12,385 nt of DNA from Physocladia obscura (lineage: Eukaryota > Chytridiomycota > Chytridiomycetes > Chytridiales > Chytriomycetaceae), in NCBI GenBank assembly GCA_027596945.1, contig JADGJH010001033.1:1-12385 (forward strand), in the 5' to 3' direction. Position 1 is the first letter of the stretch, and each line of letters opens with the position of its first letter. This document shows positions 2,768 through 12,362 of this stretch, piece by piece. The position numbers and the translations under genes were made by a program. A model generated the notes under the pieces. It did not search any database and was not told where the DNA came from. It was given only the letters and a program-made list of their open reading frames with translations.

Positions 2768-4275
2768 TTTGACCAAAAAAAATTTTTTTTTTGAGACAAA
2801 AAAAGCAAACTTTGAAACCCGCTATTGTGTTAAATAAAGCTTTTTTTTCAATATAGACTTTAAGCAGCTACATTGTAAAACACTGACAATGACAACAAGG
2901 CACTGAACAAACTAACCATACATATGTTGCCAACTACATTACATGCTGACACAACTAGTTTGTGACAGTAGAAGCAGCAGGACAAGACTGGCTTTTTATT
3001 TTGGAACTGATTTTTTCTAAAGAAAGCAAAAAGGGAAAATGAAAGTACCTCAAAAGTTTGTAATCAATAATCAAATGAAATCATGGGGAATTTGAAATGG
3101 GCTGATTAGGCATGAAAAAAAGCTATAAGAAGGCTGCTGGATTTTGACTTTTGAAAACATTCTAAAATAAAAACCTCTACCCAAAACTACTATCAAGGTT
3201 AAGGCTCACAACAACACTAAGCCTTACAACTCAAAAACCAACAAATACCTTATAATTTCATTTTGATTTTGGATGAAAGAAAATGGATTCCATTTTATTG
3301 CAAGTTACAGGCCAACAAGCAACTGCATACTCTCTACAACTTCTTCTTTCACAAGATGAAGATCACACAAATTGAGCAAATTTATGAGAAATCACCATTG
3401 ACAATCAGCCACTGGATTCAGCAATTAGAAGAAGAGGGAAGTTTCAGCACTCAAAAATGAAATCAATTGACTGAAAGTTCTCTCCTGATTATAAAGAATG
3501 GATTTTGGTTTTTTAATGAGGACCAAGCTGCATTTTGATGAAAATTTGCAATCACAATAAGCAAGTTCCATATTTGGCAGATTTTGCATCATGCTGGACT
3601 GACATGGAAAGTACTTGAGCATAGGACATTACAAATCAAAGATGGCAATGTTATGCATTTCACACATAAAATCAACTCTATTGATTTCAATCACAGCAAT
3701 ATCGCATTTCTTGAGGAAGTATCTTTCAATAATTGGGATATGTTAAGACATCAAGGATATGCTTTGAAGAGACAGAAAATGTATGTACATGGTCTTGACA
3801 GTGCCAGAATTCACATTTCACAATCACTGATTATGGATTTATGCTGGAATTATTCTGATTTACCTCCCAGCATATTGCCACTTTTTTAATCCTATTGAAG
3901 TGTTTTTTTGCATTCTCAAAGCAAAATTGAAATGCAAATATAAAGAAGGCAACATGACAGCAAAAAATCTTCTGTATGTAATTGGTACAGCATTGGCAAA
4001 TATGTGCAACATGGATCTCACCAATGTTTTTTGTAAGTGTGGATATATGGGAACCAAACTTTTTAATCCACAGGTTGGTCATTAGCAAAGTGTTTTTGTA
4101 GTTGGATTCAAATAAATTGTCCTTTTATTTAAGTAAACAATAATAAAAAATTATACATCATCATTCAAACCTAAGTTGCCACTGTGATTTGGATCTTCTA
4201 TATCAGCCACAGGGCCAGCTACACTTTCTTGTGTTGATTAGGGTTGTTTCTGTCAAAAAATTTTTTTGGACAGAA
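2768..4275 (+). mobile_element. Tc1/mariner-like element nested in the Harbinger transposase
   Basis: The 1,508-bp element is bounded by inverted repeats of about 35-42 bp. The left begins TTTGACCAAAAAAAATTTTT (2768 on). The right, read inward from 4275, begins TTCTGTCCAAAAAAATTTTT. Each end abuts a TA dinucleotide (2766-2767 and 4276-4277), the target duplication expected of this superfamily. It carries a disrupted DDE transposase on the plus strand. Joining the flanks at a single TA makes the surrounding minus-strand Harbinger reading frame continuous, which independently supports both boundaries. The TIRs contain an A-run/T-run palindrome. Confidence 0.85.
3263..4084 (+). pseudogene. Tc1/mariner (IS630-type) transposase, internally deleted and frameshifted
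   Basis: The N-terminal part has a helix-turn-helix pattern (KITQIEQIYEKSPLTISHWI). A TGA follows after about 65 codons and the frame resumes at HHAGLTWK, the end of the DNA-binding half. The first catalytic motif, normally F-I/L-D-E, reads FLEEVSFNNWDML, so Asp is Glu. A deletion of roughly 60 codons then joins YVHG to the second motif LDSARIH. A frameshift near 3850 leads to LPAYCHFFNPIE, which holds the third acidic residue. The spacing from the second Asp to this Glu is about 34 residues, as in DD34E elements. The frame ends at the TAG at 4084. Catalysis is not possible. The family call is secure; its sub-clade is not determined. Confidence 0.85.
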
Positions 4276-6089: not shown

Positions 6090-6621
6090 ATTGTTTGGGC
6101 GCGACTTGCATTGGTACACCTGGATGGAATCAATAATTTAATTCCTTTCTTGCCATACAAGTTGCGCCAAATCAGTCCGCAAGATCCAAATTCGAAAATG
6201 GCTAAACAAACGGTAATTCGTTGTTTAATGCATCTGGTAAATCAGTAAATACGGCGGCGAGCCGAGAGCAATAAGACAAATTGCCACCAACCAATATCCT
6301 AATGGTCCCACGAATCGAATCGGATCGAATAAACAAACACAGCAGCGAAGGGCGACACTCTAATTGACGAAAATTACCGCCACATAGCACAAATAGCGGT
6401 ACATAGTGGCAGGCAATACCGTTAGCAGCAGGTTTACGTTTAAACTAACTGCATTTTACGCCGCGCAACCCTGATGATCCAGATTCGAATTGGTCTCGTC
6501 GATTTGATTGATGTCAGCACGGTTGTGCGCTTTAAATTTCAATGATTCTCTCGCCAATCGATGGTTTGTGTTTCGGTCACTTTCTCTGAATCAAAATTCA
6601 ATCAAAAAATTTTGCCTACAA
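6090..6621 (+). promoter_or_regulatory. Upstream region of bZIP gene 1
   Basis: CpG suddenly becomes common here, marking the start of normal gene-bearing DNA. A CCAAT pentamer is at 6291-6295 and four tandem CGAAT/CGGAT pentamers are at 6311-6330. No TATA box stands out. It presumably contains the promoter and 5' leader of the gene starting at 6622 (or 6511). Function is inferred from position. Confidence 0.4.
6311..6330. repeat. Four tandem pentamers (CGAAT, CGAAT, CGGAT, CGAAT)
   Basis: Four head-to-tail copies of a CGAAT-like unit lie about 190-310 bp upstream of the possible start codons of gene 1. They could be a regulator-binding cluster or a small slippage repeat. Confidence 0.6.
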
Positions 6622-8391
6622 ATGCAATCGTCCAGTGAAAGCAACAAATATTTGGATAACAACAGGTCAAGCAAAAGTACACTCCCGGGAATGACACAAA
6701 GCAGAAATGCAAATGCCGGGCACGAGGAAGAAAAACTCGACGATCACTCACCAGAGATCGAAATGGAGATAGATGATGGTGTGTTAAACGCAATAAACAC
6801 AATTGCAAACGACACTTCAACGGGCACAGCACCAGTTTTGACTCAGCAAAAACGCGGGCGCGGCCGCCCTCGCCTTATGGAAACCCCAGCATCAAAACGC
6901 ACTGGCCAAAATAGGTTTGTTGATGAGTCACCACTAAAAAAAAAAAAAATTTATATTGATTCCAAAACAATAGAGAAAACCAGCGCGCTGCCCGCGAGCG
7001 TCGCCAGCGCTATATATTTGATCTGGAATCAAAAGTCCGACAATTGTCGCAAGCTAATAATGCCGTCCCAGCCCAGGCGTTATTCGAGCAACAGCAACAC
7101 CGACAAAGCGAATTCCAAGTACGTATCGCGTTTCTCGAATCGGAATGCACGCGGCTACAGAATGAAGCCGACGCCGCGCGCATAGCGTCTCTTCTTGAAA
7201 TCGAAGGGAAAAAATCTGTTGACCGCAATCCCACCCTTGAACATGCTGATGTTGATTTCGTTTGCACGCATTGTCCCTTGTGTACTACATCCACACAGCA
7301 TATAAGAATTTTAGCCACTCGTGTGGCCGAGCTCGAAGCTGTTGCATCACCCCTTTCTTCTGCTCCATCTTTTAGCTCTCAAATTTTGGATTATTCTGTT
7401 TCGCCACAGCGCCCAACATCTGCCTTGAGCTGCGAAGTCAGCAATTTTCAAAATTCTTATACAGTCGTCGATACATCAAACAATTTTTCGAATAATTACC
7501 CACGGTCTTCCTTTGAATTGTTTGGAATGCCGGATTATAGGAATGCGATTATTTCTTTGAAAAAGATTAAAGTTCTTGCAAATTGTAAACATGTTGATGA
7601 ATTATGTTCTATTCTAATGGTATTATTGTTCTGTTTTTTATTTTTTTATTTTTATTTTATTTTTTTATGACAGAGAATGTCATATTTTAATCCCTCAATG
7701 TTTTTTTTTTTTTAATTTTTCTCAGGCACAAGCAAACTGTATTCAAAAAAAACCAATGCGTTGGTATATTGTGCGCGGTCAAACACTGATTCACATGATT
7801 CTCGATCATTGCACAATGCTTGATCGTCAGGCTGCAATTGAGATATTATCGCGAGCACGAAAAACAAATTTGCATCATGAAGTACTGTCTTGATTTTTTT
7901 CGATGCTTCTGAAAACAAAATTTCTAATGTTAAAAATACATTTTTCTCACAGAACTATCAAATTACTATCGCAGAATTCTCACCACTTCTAAGTCCATTA
8001 CAAGTAGAACGAGATGAACACACTGCTACTTTCAGATCCGTGCTAACAGCAATCGAATCTTTGAAGAACGCTGATGATATTGTCGACCAAATTAGTGATA
8101 TTATTCATGTGTATAAGGAATCAGATGAAGATAAATTTTTCAGGCTGATAACTGCTTTCAACCGTCTCCAAAATATGTGCACAAGCTTTGAAGATTACAC
8201 AAAGGTAAATATATAATACTTTTATGTCGCTGAATTTTCGATTTTTATTTATTTACCTATTTTCGTTCCAGCTGATGGTTGCAGTCGAAGTGGGACGGCA
8301 AATTTTGAAAGCAGCTGGAGTTGCCCATGGTTTTACTGTATACGGCGAAAAAATTTTTGTACCTGACCATTCTTTCATAAAAAATGAATAG
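6622..8391 (+). CDS. Yap/Pap1-type bZIP transcription factor with helical-repeat C-terminus (gene 1)
   Basis: I assembled five exons: 6622-6914, 6974-7619, 7726-7881, 7953-8204 and 8272-8391 (488 aa). The introns are 59, 106, 71 and 67 nt, all GT-AG. Intron 1 is phase 2 and interrupts the basic region; the others are phase 0. The predicted nuclear protein has an acidic stretch (about 35-53), then KRGRGRPRL (77-85) just before the bZIP, as in fungal Yap/Pap1 proteins. The basic region is QNRENQRAARERRQRY (96-111). A short zipper (L115, L122) follows, then a second coiled coil (about 141-174) and a C-x2-C-x2-C cluster (195-201). The C-terminus has two helical repeats (about 277-355 and 366-465), related to those in the minus-strand genes. 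Splicing is essential: the basic region lies half on each side of intron 1. The start is uncertain: an in-frame ATG at 6511 would add 37 less typical residues. It likely binds DNA as a dimer; the targets are unknown. Confidence 0.85.
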
Positions 8392-8448
8392 AATGAATTT
8401 TTGTATAGTTTTTGTTTTTCTCTAATTTGGGAGTGGTGATAGCCCATA

Positions 8449-8454
8449 AATAAA
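8449..8454 (+). terminator. Polyadenylation signal of gene 1
   Basis: AATAAA lies 58 nt after the TAG stop of gene 1, inside CCATAAATAAATC. The position suits a fungal 3' UTR, but the motif is common in AT-rich DNA. Confidence 0.4.
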
Positions 8455-8500
8455 TCAACTTAATACTTCATCTTTAGATGAAACTATTACCAGAATTTTA

Positions 8501-8520
8501 ACACACAAACACACACACAC
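8501..8520. repeat. (CA)n microsatellite
   Basis: A short ACACACAAACACACACACAC tract downstream of gene 1, with one interruption. Confidence 0.9.
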
Positions 8521-9068
8521 TTAAAATATTTTTTTCGAATACAACTAGCTTAGAAATAAAATCAAAGTATTTCAGTGCCAAATAAGTATGCAAAATACAT
8601 TCATATTGCATTAAAAATTTCTCAGGCATAGTTGTCATTTTTGAATAAATTGTAATTCATTTTTTTAATTCTCATGGCAACTCCAGTCTTCCAGTTCGTT
8701 AAATGGCTATTTGAACTATTATATAATAATAAACTATTAAGGGCTCTAATTTCATTTAATTTTATTTTTTTGCCGCCGGGCTTCGCGATAAAGTGGGTAT
8801 AAGTCACAAAAACAAGAAAAATTTTTTAAAGCCTCCATGACAATTCAATATTTTCCACCAACCCAAAGTTTCGGCAAAGTTGAGTGGCTTGCTTACCACA
8901 CACAAAAAAATATTACGCTTAAAAAAGAGAGAAATAACTCAATTATTACTTTTTATCTTTCGCTTATTGCCTACGCTAACACAAACTACACTGTATAGAG
9001 AGAATAATAATAAAATATGAAGTTTCGTATTAGTGTGAAGTTTATGTGCATTTTTGAAGCTGATTTAA

Positions 9069-9074
9069 TTTATT
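9069..9074 (-). terminator. Polyadenylation signal of gene 2
   Basis: On the minus strand AATAAA occurs about 20 nt after the TAA stop of gene 2. The position is plausible, but the motif is not specific in AT-rich sequence. Confidence 0.4.
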
Positions 9075-9094
9075 TAGATTTGAAAGATGGGAAT

Positions 9095-11107
9095 TTAGTT
9101 ATACAAGTTTGGCTGCAAATATTGACAATTTTCGCGCTCCCTGCAACACTCAATTATTTCAATAACGCGGTATCGATCTTGTTGCGAGTGTAAGTTCAAA
9201 AGTCGTGTTTTCGTTTGTATCATGTGAAAATTTGTGATTTCTCTTTCTTTGCCAACCTGCTTCAGGAAAATCTGTAATAAAAAATAATAATAATAATAAT
9301 TAATAATTAATAATAATAATAATAATAATAGCATCAACGTACCAAATATAATGAATGATAATGATTTAGTAAGTTTTCTTTGTTTGTACTCGTTGAACAT
9401 TCTGGGCCATTTAGTTTCAATACATCATCCTCTGTGATGACTTTTACACGATGCAACGGAATCTCAAAGTCGTAAAAATCGAGCGCCATCAAAAATCTTT
9501 CCTCGACGCGTGAGTCATCAATACGGTAAAGAAACTGAAGAGAGATGAAAGAATGAGTCAAATATTTTTATCAGACAGTTTCTTTTTTAACCTGATGCTT
9601 ATCGCACTGATTGATTCGGTTTAGCAAAGCAAACACAAGATTTACAAATTTCAAAAATGTCGCTGCTAAAATTCGCTGATTTGAGCAAACAGCTGGTTCA
9701 ATCGATAGCTGGCAGAGATTTTCGACTAACTCGTTTGCACAGGCGTGTACTGAAGGAATCGAATTAAGTCGTGCTCGCAGTGTATTAAATTTGTCCATGA
9801 GCGATCCATCACATATTGATTTAACTGCTTTACTTGATATAGTATCATTATTGGTATTTGTAGCTGATGATAAAATTTTGAGATGGCCGTGTCGCTTGGA
9901 ATCTATTTCTCGGCAGTATTCGATAATAGTCATGGCGCAATATCGATCTTCTGGCGAGCATAAATCCATAAGCTTATGCTTAATTCTGAAAGCGTGGATT
10001 ACGGCCTTTTGCCGCATTACGGCGTCGTTAGTTCTTGCGTTTAGCTGTTCAATTTTCAAACCATAAAAAACATAGTATACGAATCAAAATTTAGAAATAA
10101 TTACTACCGTATACCACGTTTGAAACTGATCAAGAAAATTTTCTGCTTGTGGCGTTCTAAGAGATTCGACCAACCTCAACGTATTTGAAAAATAAACAGT
10201 TGGCTCTTCATAAAGGAGCTCGCCAGAAAAGGTCGGAATATCGAATGTCAAGGCACTGAGAGTCGACAAAATATCCTTCTCCACTTGGGAATCTTCAAGA
10301 ATACGTAGAGCCTTCAAAAAATTCAAATTCATCATCTCATAGAAAGACAAAAAGGAAAAACTCACGATCATGCCTCACCCTATTTCTTTCTTCCATGTTT
10401 CGACAGTTTTCAAATAAATCATATTTGGCCTTGAAAAAATTTATAAAGCACGCCGTTTTAATGTCCAGTTGCTCACAAGTAGCCCAACGTTCCAAAATTT
10501 GGAAGAGTTCTTCCAAAAATTTTGGAACTTGTAGATTCACGCTAGAGATACAGGAAAGTTTAATGCGTAGACTTTCGATAACGTTTCCAATTGAAAGTGC
10601 ATAACGCGAAATTGACGCCTCGCTTTGGCAAGAAGCAACAGTGGATTGTGAGCAATTGTTGCAAAATGCATTGTGAGAATCTGAACACTGCAGGGCAAAT
10701 GATTGTTTATTATTCAACGGAATTAGCGAATCAGGCGATCGTGCGACGTCCAAAACTTTATGCAAATTTTGCTCAAGCCTGCCGTTTTCTAGTTTGCGTT
10801 GCTGAATAGCCTCTTCTAACTGAACCACACGGGCTGCAAGAAGATCAGCAACACTAGCCGAACAAATCGACTGCGCTGAAAAAGAGCATGATAATGCCAA
10901 TGTATTGTTGGTTTGCGGAGGTGGCTGCGGAATTTCAGATACTATTTTGAACCACTCTCCGGCAAATTCGGCGACGTGGGCTTCGAGCTCTGCAATGCGC
11001 GCATCTTTACGCAGGCGGTAGTTTAGCTGGTGTTTACGGTTCTGTCGCGCAAAGTGTTCAGCAGCGGCTTGCGGTGGAAGATTGAGTTTTGGTCGGCCTC
11101 GCTTCAT
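9095..11107 (-). CDS. Yap/Pap1-type bZIP transcription factor with A-B-A-B helical repeats (gene 2)
   Basis: I assembled five exons on the minus strand: 11107-10379, 10311-10108, 10044-9592, 9534-9343 and 9271-9095 (584 aa). The four introns are GT-AG, phase 0, of 67, 63, 57 and 71 nt. The first acceptor could be 10336 instead, adding 8 aa; I preferred the one that keeps the 9-residue spacing seen in the paralogous exons. The protein starts MKRGRPKLNL, then has the basic region RQNRKHQLNYRLRKDARI (21-38), a short zipper (L41, F48), a Pro-rich linker (60-64) and a second coiled coil (about 86-121). C141, C149 and C152 resemble the Cys cluster of gene 1. Four repeats follow: about 165-260, 275-360, 384-480 and 500-575. 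Recurring motifs are FNTLR...SIPS, VE.LC.L and C..EDR...I. It is a likely nuclear DNA-binding dimer. An extra 5' exon is possible at 11192-11212. Gene 3 lies upstream in the same orientation. Confidence 0.85.
9276..9330. repeat. (AAT)n microsatellite within intron 4 of gene 2
   Basis: A run of imperfect AAT/TAA trinucleotides fills most of the 71-nt intron 9272-9342. The donor GTACGT and acceptor TTACAG lie on either side. Length variation here would change intron size without touching the protein. Confidence 0.9.
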
Positions 11108-11480
11108 TTTTTCATGCACGATATCCAATTTCACAAAAATCTTTTTTCCTTACTCAACAATTATAATTTGGTTTCAAAAGCAAGTACTCACCGCGGACAA
11201 TAAATAAGACATATTATTTTCTCTCATTTTGTTCTGAAATCTGTTCGCTTTGATTTTTTCCAGTCAAGTTTTGTTTTTTGTATTTCTTTGTGACTAAAGG
11301 TAAATCACATGACTTTTGAGAAAAAATCAGAATTCAGCCTCCCTTGTTGACATAAGATTTTATTTTATTTTTTATTGTTTCATTTTCGAAACCTGCAATA
11401 GTAATATTTGTCGAAGGCTTTTATTGTTTAATTTTGAATTGCATAATATATACATAAATTCCGAAAATGAACTTTCGCGG
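11108..11480 (-). promoter_or_regulatory. Intergenic/promoter region between genes 3 and 2, with a possible 5' exon of gene 2
   Basis: About 370 bp separate the stop of gene 3 from the MKRGRPK start of gene 2, so the promoter of gene 2 must lie here. On the minus strand, ATGTCTTATTTATTGTCCGCG (11212-11192) encodes 7 residues, MSYLLSA, and is followed directly by a strong donor GTGAGTA. Splicing to the AAG ending at 11141 would keep the phase and add 18 residues before MKRGRPK. That acceptor lacks a pyrimidine tract, so the exon is unproven. No clear TATA box was seen. Confidence 0.4.
11419..11424 (-). terminator. Polyadenylation signal of gene 3
   Basis: Minus-strand AATAAA about 57 nt past the TGA stop of gene 3, in ACAATAAAAGCC. 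Confidence 0.4.
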
Positions 11481-12362
11481 TCATATTTTGCAAGATTCAA
11501 TCATTTCCACGGCATGAAACAAATCCTGTTGCTGGCAAACACGCATGATTCGCTTTTTAACCCACAAAATTTGCGTGAGTGTGATCTGTTTTGTTGGACC
11601 TGTTTGTGCGACATATGTCTTCAACAAAGGTCAGTGCTAAATAGTTGCAAAACCAAATTTCACCCTACCGAATACAAGGAAGAAAGTTGTTTTGCGAAAG
11701 TATCTATCTCATTTTCATCTGCGCATTGCTTTTTGTAGATAGGAAGTTGAAAATCGGGACAGTTGAGAGCGCGTAAAAATTCTTCTTCGACTCCAAACTT
11801 TTCAATAATTTGAAGAATCTATACAAAATTTTATTGTTATTGCTATTGACTTACCTTGGCACAAAAAATAGAATATCATAATGTAACAAACTTCCTTCCG
11901 CTCCTCAACCGTGGCGCATTTTTCAATAATCAACTGTTTCAGTTTCATAAACTCTGATAACCGGGACGCCAAATTCGGCAAATTGGAACAAACTGTAGGC
12001 TCAATAGAAAGCCGACACAGCTCTTCAACAGTATGCCATAACGATGACGAAGACGATAAGCCACCACAGAGAGACGGAATAGACCAAAGTTGCATACGTA
12101 AGGTATTAAACCTTTCCAAAAGTGAACCGTCACATATGGATTTCAAAGCTCGATGGGATTTAGATTGATCGTTACTTTCTGCTGTCGATGAAGGCTGCGG
12201 TGATGCAATTTGTTTTTCATCATGCAGGCGGCAGTGTTCAATTATCTTCAAGGCGCAAATTCGGTCTTCTTTGGAGCATATCTGTAAAATTTGATATTTG
12301 ACTCGTAATATTTGAATCAGCGCATTTTGCAATATAGTCATGTTTCTAGTGGATAATCGGAT
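11481..12362 (-). CDS. 3' part of a third paralogue (helical-repeat C-terminus; 5' end beyond the window)
   Basis: Three exons are visible on the minus strand: 12362-11892, 11818-11669 and 11618-11481, giving 252 residues before the TGA. The introns are 73 nt (GTTTGT...TATAG) and 50 nt (GTAGGG...GAAG), both phase 0. The first exon begins after an acceptor TTTGAATTAG and matches exon 3 of gene 2 from its first codon, with 19 residues before RVKYQ/RIKHK in both. Shared stretches include CDGSL..(R/K)FNTLR, SIPS, and LC.LSIEP.VCSN. The second exon (QIIEKFGVEEEFLRAL) and third exon (QILWVKKRIMRVC, then AVEMIESCK) match exons 4 and 5 of gene 2. Ser-rich loops (PQPSSTAES, SSSSS) differ from gene 2. 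The bZIP part, if present, is to the right of the window, so DNA binding is inferred from paralogy. It reads as a tandem duplicate of gene 2 in the same orientation. Confidence 0.8.

Follow-up and report, generated by a model that had tools for sequence, protein, structure and literature searches.

The question raised by this locus is what the shared C-terminal region of its bZIP genes is, and what it might do behind a DNA-binding region resembling those of the fungal AP-1 factors. The window, the whole stretch of DNA analyzed, is the entire contig C939 (12,385 bp) of the Physocladia obscura assembly, which comprises 21.8 Mb in 1222 contigs. Three genes, A, B and C, were spliced by hand; all their introns are GT-AG and, except for the first intron of A, of phase 0. 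These models bear out the proposal of the first-pass annotation that two complete bZIP genes and the 3' part of a third are present: A and B are complete, and only the 3' part of C is seen, its bZIP not being on the contig because the gene runs off the contig end. A and B are convergent, and C lies upstream of B, head to tail. The genes and the features preceding their C-terminal repeats are as follows:

6622-8391, plus strand: gene A, 488 aa, five exons (6622-6914, 6974-7619, 7726-7881, 7953-8204, 8272-8391), open frame, GT-AG introns
6895-7064, plus strand: gene A bZIP, residues 92-128 (PF00170 E 7.8e-6; matches to 7aw7 and 1gd2)
7263-7283, plus strand: CTHCPLC, a cysteine motif that follows the zipper of gene A, seen in the sequence
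9095-11107, minus strand: gene B, 584 aa, five exons (11107-10379, 10311-10108, 10044-9592, 9534-9343, 9271-9095), open frame, GT-AG introns
10934-11047, minus strand: gene B bZIP, residues 21-58 (PF00170 E 7.8e-4, below the cut-off)
11481-12362, minus strand: gene C, 3' part, 241 aa, three exons (12362-11892, 11818-11669, 11585-11481)

An in-frame ATG at 6511 offers an alternative start for gene A, the basic region of which is interrupted by an intron, and the stop codon of gene B ends at 9095. AT-hook-like tails precede the bZIP in both genes (KRGRGRPR in A, KRGRPKL in B). Elsewhere in the window, an ATT/TAA triplet run occupies part of intron 4 of gene B (9280-9330), and remains of a DDE transposase lie in separate frames at 3542-4085 on the plus strand, about 2.5 kb upstream of gene A (HTH_33 E 7.9e-4, DDE_3 E 1.7e-4; both below their respective cut-offs). 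No Rfam family and, with a search that used the bacterial code, no tRNA was found in the window.

bZIP proteins act as dimers on DNA. Both A and B show the N-x7-R/K and leucine zipper arrangement of this fold, in each case as N-x7-R, and PF00170 recovers them with 26.3 bits (E 7.8e-6) and 19.9 bits (E 7.8e-4), respectively, both below the curated cut-off of 27.6. The zipper of B is short, with prolines behind it. Among solved structures, the bZIP of A matches HapX (7aw7, E 1.6e-4) and Pap1 (1gd2, E 0.0049), and that of B returned chance matches only. When a profile of the family bZIP was compared with the PDB, HapX (1.1e-10) and Pap1 (2.8e-10) were followed at a distance by CREB (3.1e-4), and by profile the family bZIP thus appears closest to HapX and Pap1. 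The kinship with HapX is seen in 7aw7 being the best PDB match of the family profile and also of the bZIP of A; however, the Hap4-type family, which covers the CBC-binding motif before the bZIP, is not among the Pfam matches of A at E <= 10. With Pap1 and Yap1 the family further shares the GRK/RGR tail before the basic region and cysteines C-terminal to the zipper, but the PAP1 domain (PF08601) was not found here, helical repeats taking its place, and the signature of the basic region is incomplete. This signature, given in PMC7261193 as RxxxNxxAQxxFR, is represented in A by RTGQNRENQRAAR, with R, N, Q and R kept and A and F changed, and in B by NRKHQLNYR (NxxHQxxYR), with the first R missing. 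The earlier label 'Yap-like' fits A, fits B only loosely, and does not extend to C, the bZIP of which is not visible on the contig.

The C-termini of A, B and C are made of homologous copies of a single helical repeat, each unit being about 75 residues long. This repeat comes in two versions, u1 and u2, with two copies in A (u1-u2), four in B (u2-u1-u2-u1) and 2.5 visible copies in C (end of a u1, then u2-u1). This was established with 'outside' profiles of each version, built from other loci of the same genome with A, B and C left out. With the outside u1 profile the E-values are 3.6e-20 for A, 3e-17 for B and 6.2e-7 for C, as against a best domain E-value of 1.5 among 1500 shuffled sequences, and with this the claimed relationship between the three C-termini holds. 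The corresponding values for the outside u2 profile are 8.6e-18, 1.1e-5 and 0.024, with a best domain E-value of 0.094 among 1500 shuffled sequences, and the membership of C depends for this reason on the u1 profile. Since A is matched by profiles of the joint B/C type directly with only 1.3e-3 and 7.5e-4 (best shuffled domain E-values 0.45 and 0.12), its kinship to the other two is mainly carried by the wider family. The individual units are:

7518-7866, plus strand: gene A u1, residues 280-360 (u1 profile domain E 1.7e-14), with the intron 7620-7725 inside it
8028-8301, plus strand: gene A u2, residues 390-459 (u2 profile domain E 1.2e-14), with the intron 8205-8271 inside it
10273-10591, minus strand: gene B unit 1, u2 type, residues 176-250 (outside u1 profile domain E 0.0026; profile of its own type, this unit included, 4.3e-38)
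9901-10212, minus strand: gene B unit 2, u1 type (domain E 5.1e-6 with the outside u1 profile)
9496-9801, minus strand: gene B unit 3, u2 type (6e-5 with the outside u1 profile, 3.8e-4 with the outside u2 profile)
9134-9387, minus strand: gene B unit 4, u1 type (only 0.069 with the outside u1 profile; 1.8e-10 with a B-type u1 profile from which this unit was left out)
11481-12362, minus strand: gene C, 3' part as a whole, with u1 end, u2 and u1 (outside u1 profile, whole-sequence E 6.2e-7)

The two versions are themselves homologous (hhalign probability 96.8%); the B-type u1 and B-type u2 units align with each other at 88.7% probability, and the canonical u2 profile did not match the B-type u1 units (8.3%). 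Introns recur at the same places in all three genes, always in phase 0, namely behind the second predicted helix of u1 and near the C-terminal end of u2. Across the family u1 is marked by [DNE]-x-C-x3-[DE]-R. An N-x2-H comes after it in A and in those homologues, 10 of 14, that could be examined, but is missing from the B-type units; D312, C314, N333 and H336 of u1 are invariant in all nine rows of an alignment, A5, that spans five genera. As to the recurring motifs noted earlier, FNTLR and SIPS are indeed common to B and C, but the version in A has diverged to FRSVLTAIESL.

The repeat, unfamiliar to the first-pass annotation, is not covered by any Pfam model. In A, B, C and six homologues, no Pfam family exceeds a shown cut-off over the module, and 12 module rows gave no Pfam match below E 0.004; the weak names that came up, CRR7 (0.0043, two of the 12 rows), KA1 (0.0083), ARM_LIN_2nd (0.014) and others (one row each), were rejected as scattered. 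Nor had that annotation recognized in it the domains usual in fungal bZIP proteins, and Pfam agrees: DUF3425 (PF11905) is listed neither in A, B and C nor in the 12 module rows, and the PAP1 cysteine-rich domain (PF08601) is reported neither for A, B and C nor for the six homologues. Genome searches for DUF3425 and, in six frames, for PF08601 were empty as well, but so were their controls. DOG1 (PF14144) is likewise absent from the Pfam matches of A, B, C and the 12 module rows and from the genome search. A PDB profile search with the module alone gave a single match (1wix, E 0.71), which we judged to be chance. The structure prediction that had been called for, done on parts of gene B, gave all-helical models in each case but at a pLDDT of 50.4 for exons 2-3, with the 63-nt intron translated through, and of 60.1 for exon 3 alone, and no usable match followed: Foldseek with these low-confidence models returned nothing at E <= 0.001. 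The top rows of VIA-align (a designed binder, the FAK FAT domain, a catenin tail) appear to reflect an arrangement common among helical proteins in general.

When the 71 matches with E-values of up to 1 from five protein searches of the same genome are pooled, the module is located at 43 places on 22 contigs. At 35 of these PF00170 matches the same strand at a distance of 289-892 bp upstream; if only places at E <= 0.01 are taken, 30 of 34 have a same-strand bZIP within 2.5 kb upstream, for which chance would account in about 0.4%. The others comprise gene C, which reaches the end of its contig, and three C622 places, of which two have an upstream exon with an RGR tail and a KRR-type basic stretch, the bZIP apparently being split by an intron. 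Places lacking a bZIP and with E > 0.01 (on C1085, C422, C632 and C860) may be chance matches. Conversely, the module lies downstream of 35 of 69 PF00170 matches at E <= 1 and of 25 of 34 at E <= 0.01. All these counts are lower bounds; in tandem bZIP-module genes on C76 (L071, L077) and C622 (L018, L076) the basic region and zipper apparently lie on more than one exon, and as scans for single-exon bZIPs miss some genes, the bZIP counts may be too low. The module genes are clustered, with 33 of the 43 places on 12 contigs that hold two or more (1.4 expected, treating contigs as equal), and B-type genes are found on three contigs. On C425 a piece of a retrotransposon reverse transcriptase (L015, 2760-3152; RVT_2, E 1.1e-10) adjoins two B-type bZIP genes, and on C12 the bZIP-module gene of C1069 has a near-copy (L033) that is apparently broken into several frames and possibly a pseudogene. 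Zn2Cys6 clusters, a mark of its fungal nature, give 28 matches at E <= 0.01 in this genome, all above the cut-off.

Many of these paralogues have lost the asparagine of the bZIP, a residue that contacts DNA and is almost invariant elsewhere. In 38 module genes the position holds Asn (14), Met (12), Leu (4), Ile (4), Val (3) or Thr (1), that is, a residue other than Asn in 24, with A and B among those that retain it. This table includes some genes outside the 43 places (C12, C723, C1110a) and leaves out C138b and the C622 gene at 9393; on C459, C901, C1201, C101, C1101, C622, C723 and C76 the basic region is split by an intron and its splicing is our reading. An RGR- or GRK-like tail, on a loose pattern, precedes the basic region in 30 of the 38. 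In a tree of 34 hand-spliced rows, some without u2 and with B-type genes represented by their second and third units, 15 non-Asn genes form one clade (support 99/96), and four changes at the asparagine are needed, three of them forced by well-supported branches. The clade, spread over contigs C459, C1123, C901, C101, C1201, C1101, C138 and C579 (e.g., L031, L029 and L080), has Met, Leu or Thr at this position, and 12 of its 15 members carry a PCLNPNC-like CX4C behind the zipper.

Cysteines are a recurrent feature of the linker between zipper and module. Among the 22 linkers readable in full, 18 have a CX2C or CX4C pair, where shuffling gives a mean of 2.2 and a maximum of 8 in 5000 rounds; the exceptions are C459c, C1123b, C579m and C1110y, and gene B, which has C-x8-C at the usual place, is counted only by virtue of a CNNC further down. 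CX4C occurs in 13 of 36 readable linkers. Of the 14 homologues described below, all nine examined have CxxC behind the zipper, and the first Cys of the pair is invariant in the nine rows of A5. Within the module, 24 of 28 u1 units retain their cysteine, as do, on a loose pattern, 20 of 23 u2 units.

These two features invite comparison with Yap8 (Arr1) of S. cerevisiae. In PMC7261193, Yap8 is described as having Leu in place of the Asn and as recognizing an extended site with the help of a basic tail at its N-terminus, and according to PMC6545440 its arsenic response runs through Cys132, Cys137 and Cys274. The paralogues with a hydrophobic residue at the asparagine (24 of 38 non-Asn, one of them Thr) are alike in the former respect, and the CX4C seen in part of the linkers matches the Cys132-Cys137 spacing, which is a likeness of pattern; unlike Yap8, genes A and B of the window have Asn.

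A query of the C1204 type retrieved 14 proteins, all from chytrids and all Chytriomycetaceae (Physocladia, Entophlyctis, Siphonaria, Podochytrium, Obelidium and Rhizoclosmatium), under names such as 'hypothetical protein', 'Uncharacterized' or 'BZIP domain-containing' and with PF00170 or nothing as precomputed Pfam match. Unnamed Chytriomycetaceae bZIP proteins such as Rhizoclosmatium BCR33DRAFT_856497 and Entophlyctis HDU83_005521 share the GRK tail, bZIP, CxxC, LYGP-type u1 and u2; they differ in a basic region of the NLEAQRAFR type and fall in a supported tree group that excludes A and B. Podochytrium has Ser at the asparagine position. The P. obscura protein P0004 is 95% identical over 98% of the hand-spliced C1204-type gene; the public gene models P0004 and P0006 each seem to be a fusion of two neighboring bZIP genes. 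A search with residues 165-584 of gene B found no match at E <= 1 among 4731 candidates, which says little on absence, as paralogues in its own genome exist and yet went unmatched, and a profile search with A5 returned three proteins from the 7994 scored candidates sharing most words, missing most of the A5 rows themselves. Given its presence in five other genera, the module is, as far as these homologues indicate, at least family-wide in Chytriomycetaceae and not special to the A-B-C locus. The cluster of the first-pass annotation has to be seen more broadly, its contig being one of 12 that bear two or more module places. An expansion of bZIPs by a factor of 3.25, in the ancestor shared by chytrids and derived fungi, is reported in PMC10406608, and fungal transcription-factor numbers are treated in PMC5415576. 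Among the literature matches listed, which comprised titles and abstract openings with few subscription journals, neither the helical domain nor the loss of the bZIP asparagine is described; since the bZIP expansion is already reported and these two are not found there, the family is best described as a bZIP chassis combined with an uncatalogued domain.

Accordingly, we lean towards A, B and C being paralogous Pap1-like (fungal AP-1) bZIP factors with a C-terminal all-helical regulatory domain. Each protein would dimerize and contact DNA through the basic region and the RGR-type N-terminal tail, and would be controlled by the two repeats of A, or the four of B and probably of C, of about 75 residues each. 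We infer from the sequences that this domain probably regulates activity or partner choice, and it is, to judge from the homologues, a common trait of Chytriomycetaceae bZIPs that was multiplied largely in clusters in the P. obscura genome. That it is a single compact regulatory domain is likewise a reading of ours, because the predicted fold reached only a pLDDT of 50-60. Counting against this reading are the short zipper of B with its prolines, the bZIP scores of A and B below the Pfam cut-off, and the missing match between the canonical u2 profile and the B-type u1 units. The most specific mechanism we favor, tentatively, is sensing through thiols, in which a stress signal would be bound by the Cys pair and the u1 Cys, or would oxidize them, and thereby change the exposure of the domain, analogously to Yap1 or Yap8 but through a different domain. 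Such sensing cannot be universal, because gene B has C-x8-C and four of the 22 linkers are without the pair, and the conserved cysteines may alternatively be structural or zinc-binding.

The many paralogues in one genome, the second coil behind the Cys pair, the weak zipper of B and the variable unit number (two or four) would also suit a somewhat doubtful alternative, in which the helical repeats are a second dimerization or partner-selection domain through which tandem paralogues pick partners, no small signal being sensed; however, invariant Cys, Asp, Asn and His residues in u1 would be unusual for a plain interface. Those same four residues, D312, C314, N333 and H336, might instead line a pocket or metal site if the module were a ligand- or cofactor-binding receptor domain. 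Plant TGA factors have a bZIP followed by a helical C-terminal domain (DOG1), and the same domain order here (the TGA side being general background), together with the all-helical prediction, is consistent with a receptor of that kind; yet neither DOG1 nor any other C-terminal sequence match connects the two, the PDB chains of TGA3 and TGA7 matching over the bZIP only, and we think this unlikely. Finally, the weak bZIP of B, the transposase remains in the window, the reverse-transcriptase piece beside the B-type genes on C425 and the broken C12 copy are all compatible with turnover, in tandem and driven by transposons, having left many copies, B and C included, as duplicates that are decaying or dominant-negative and no longer act as activators. 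This is decidedly improbable, as A and B retain intact frames, splice sites and unit order and B-type genes recur on three contigs.

To a bolder proposition we attach a low likelihood: that a chytrid lineage evolved a large clustered bZIP class with a new helical sensor domain, and that the 15-gene clade, by swapping Asn for Met, Leu or Thr, coupled new DNA specificities of the Yap8 kind to diverging thiol or ligand sensors. If true, this would be a lineage-specific receptor-like expansion comparable in its logic to the nuclear receptors. The analysis delimits, in regulators of six chytrid genera, a domain for which Pfam has no model, and offers a natural series of paralogues, at least 38 of them readable in a single genome, with the bZIP asparagine replaced in 24. 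The rules of bZIP DNA recognition and the origin of Yap-like stress sensing would thereby become testable in early-diverging fungi.
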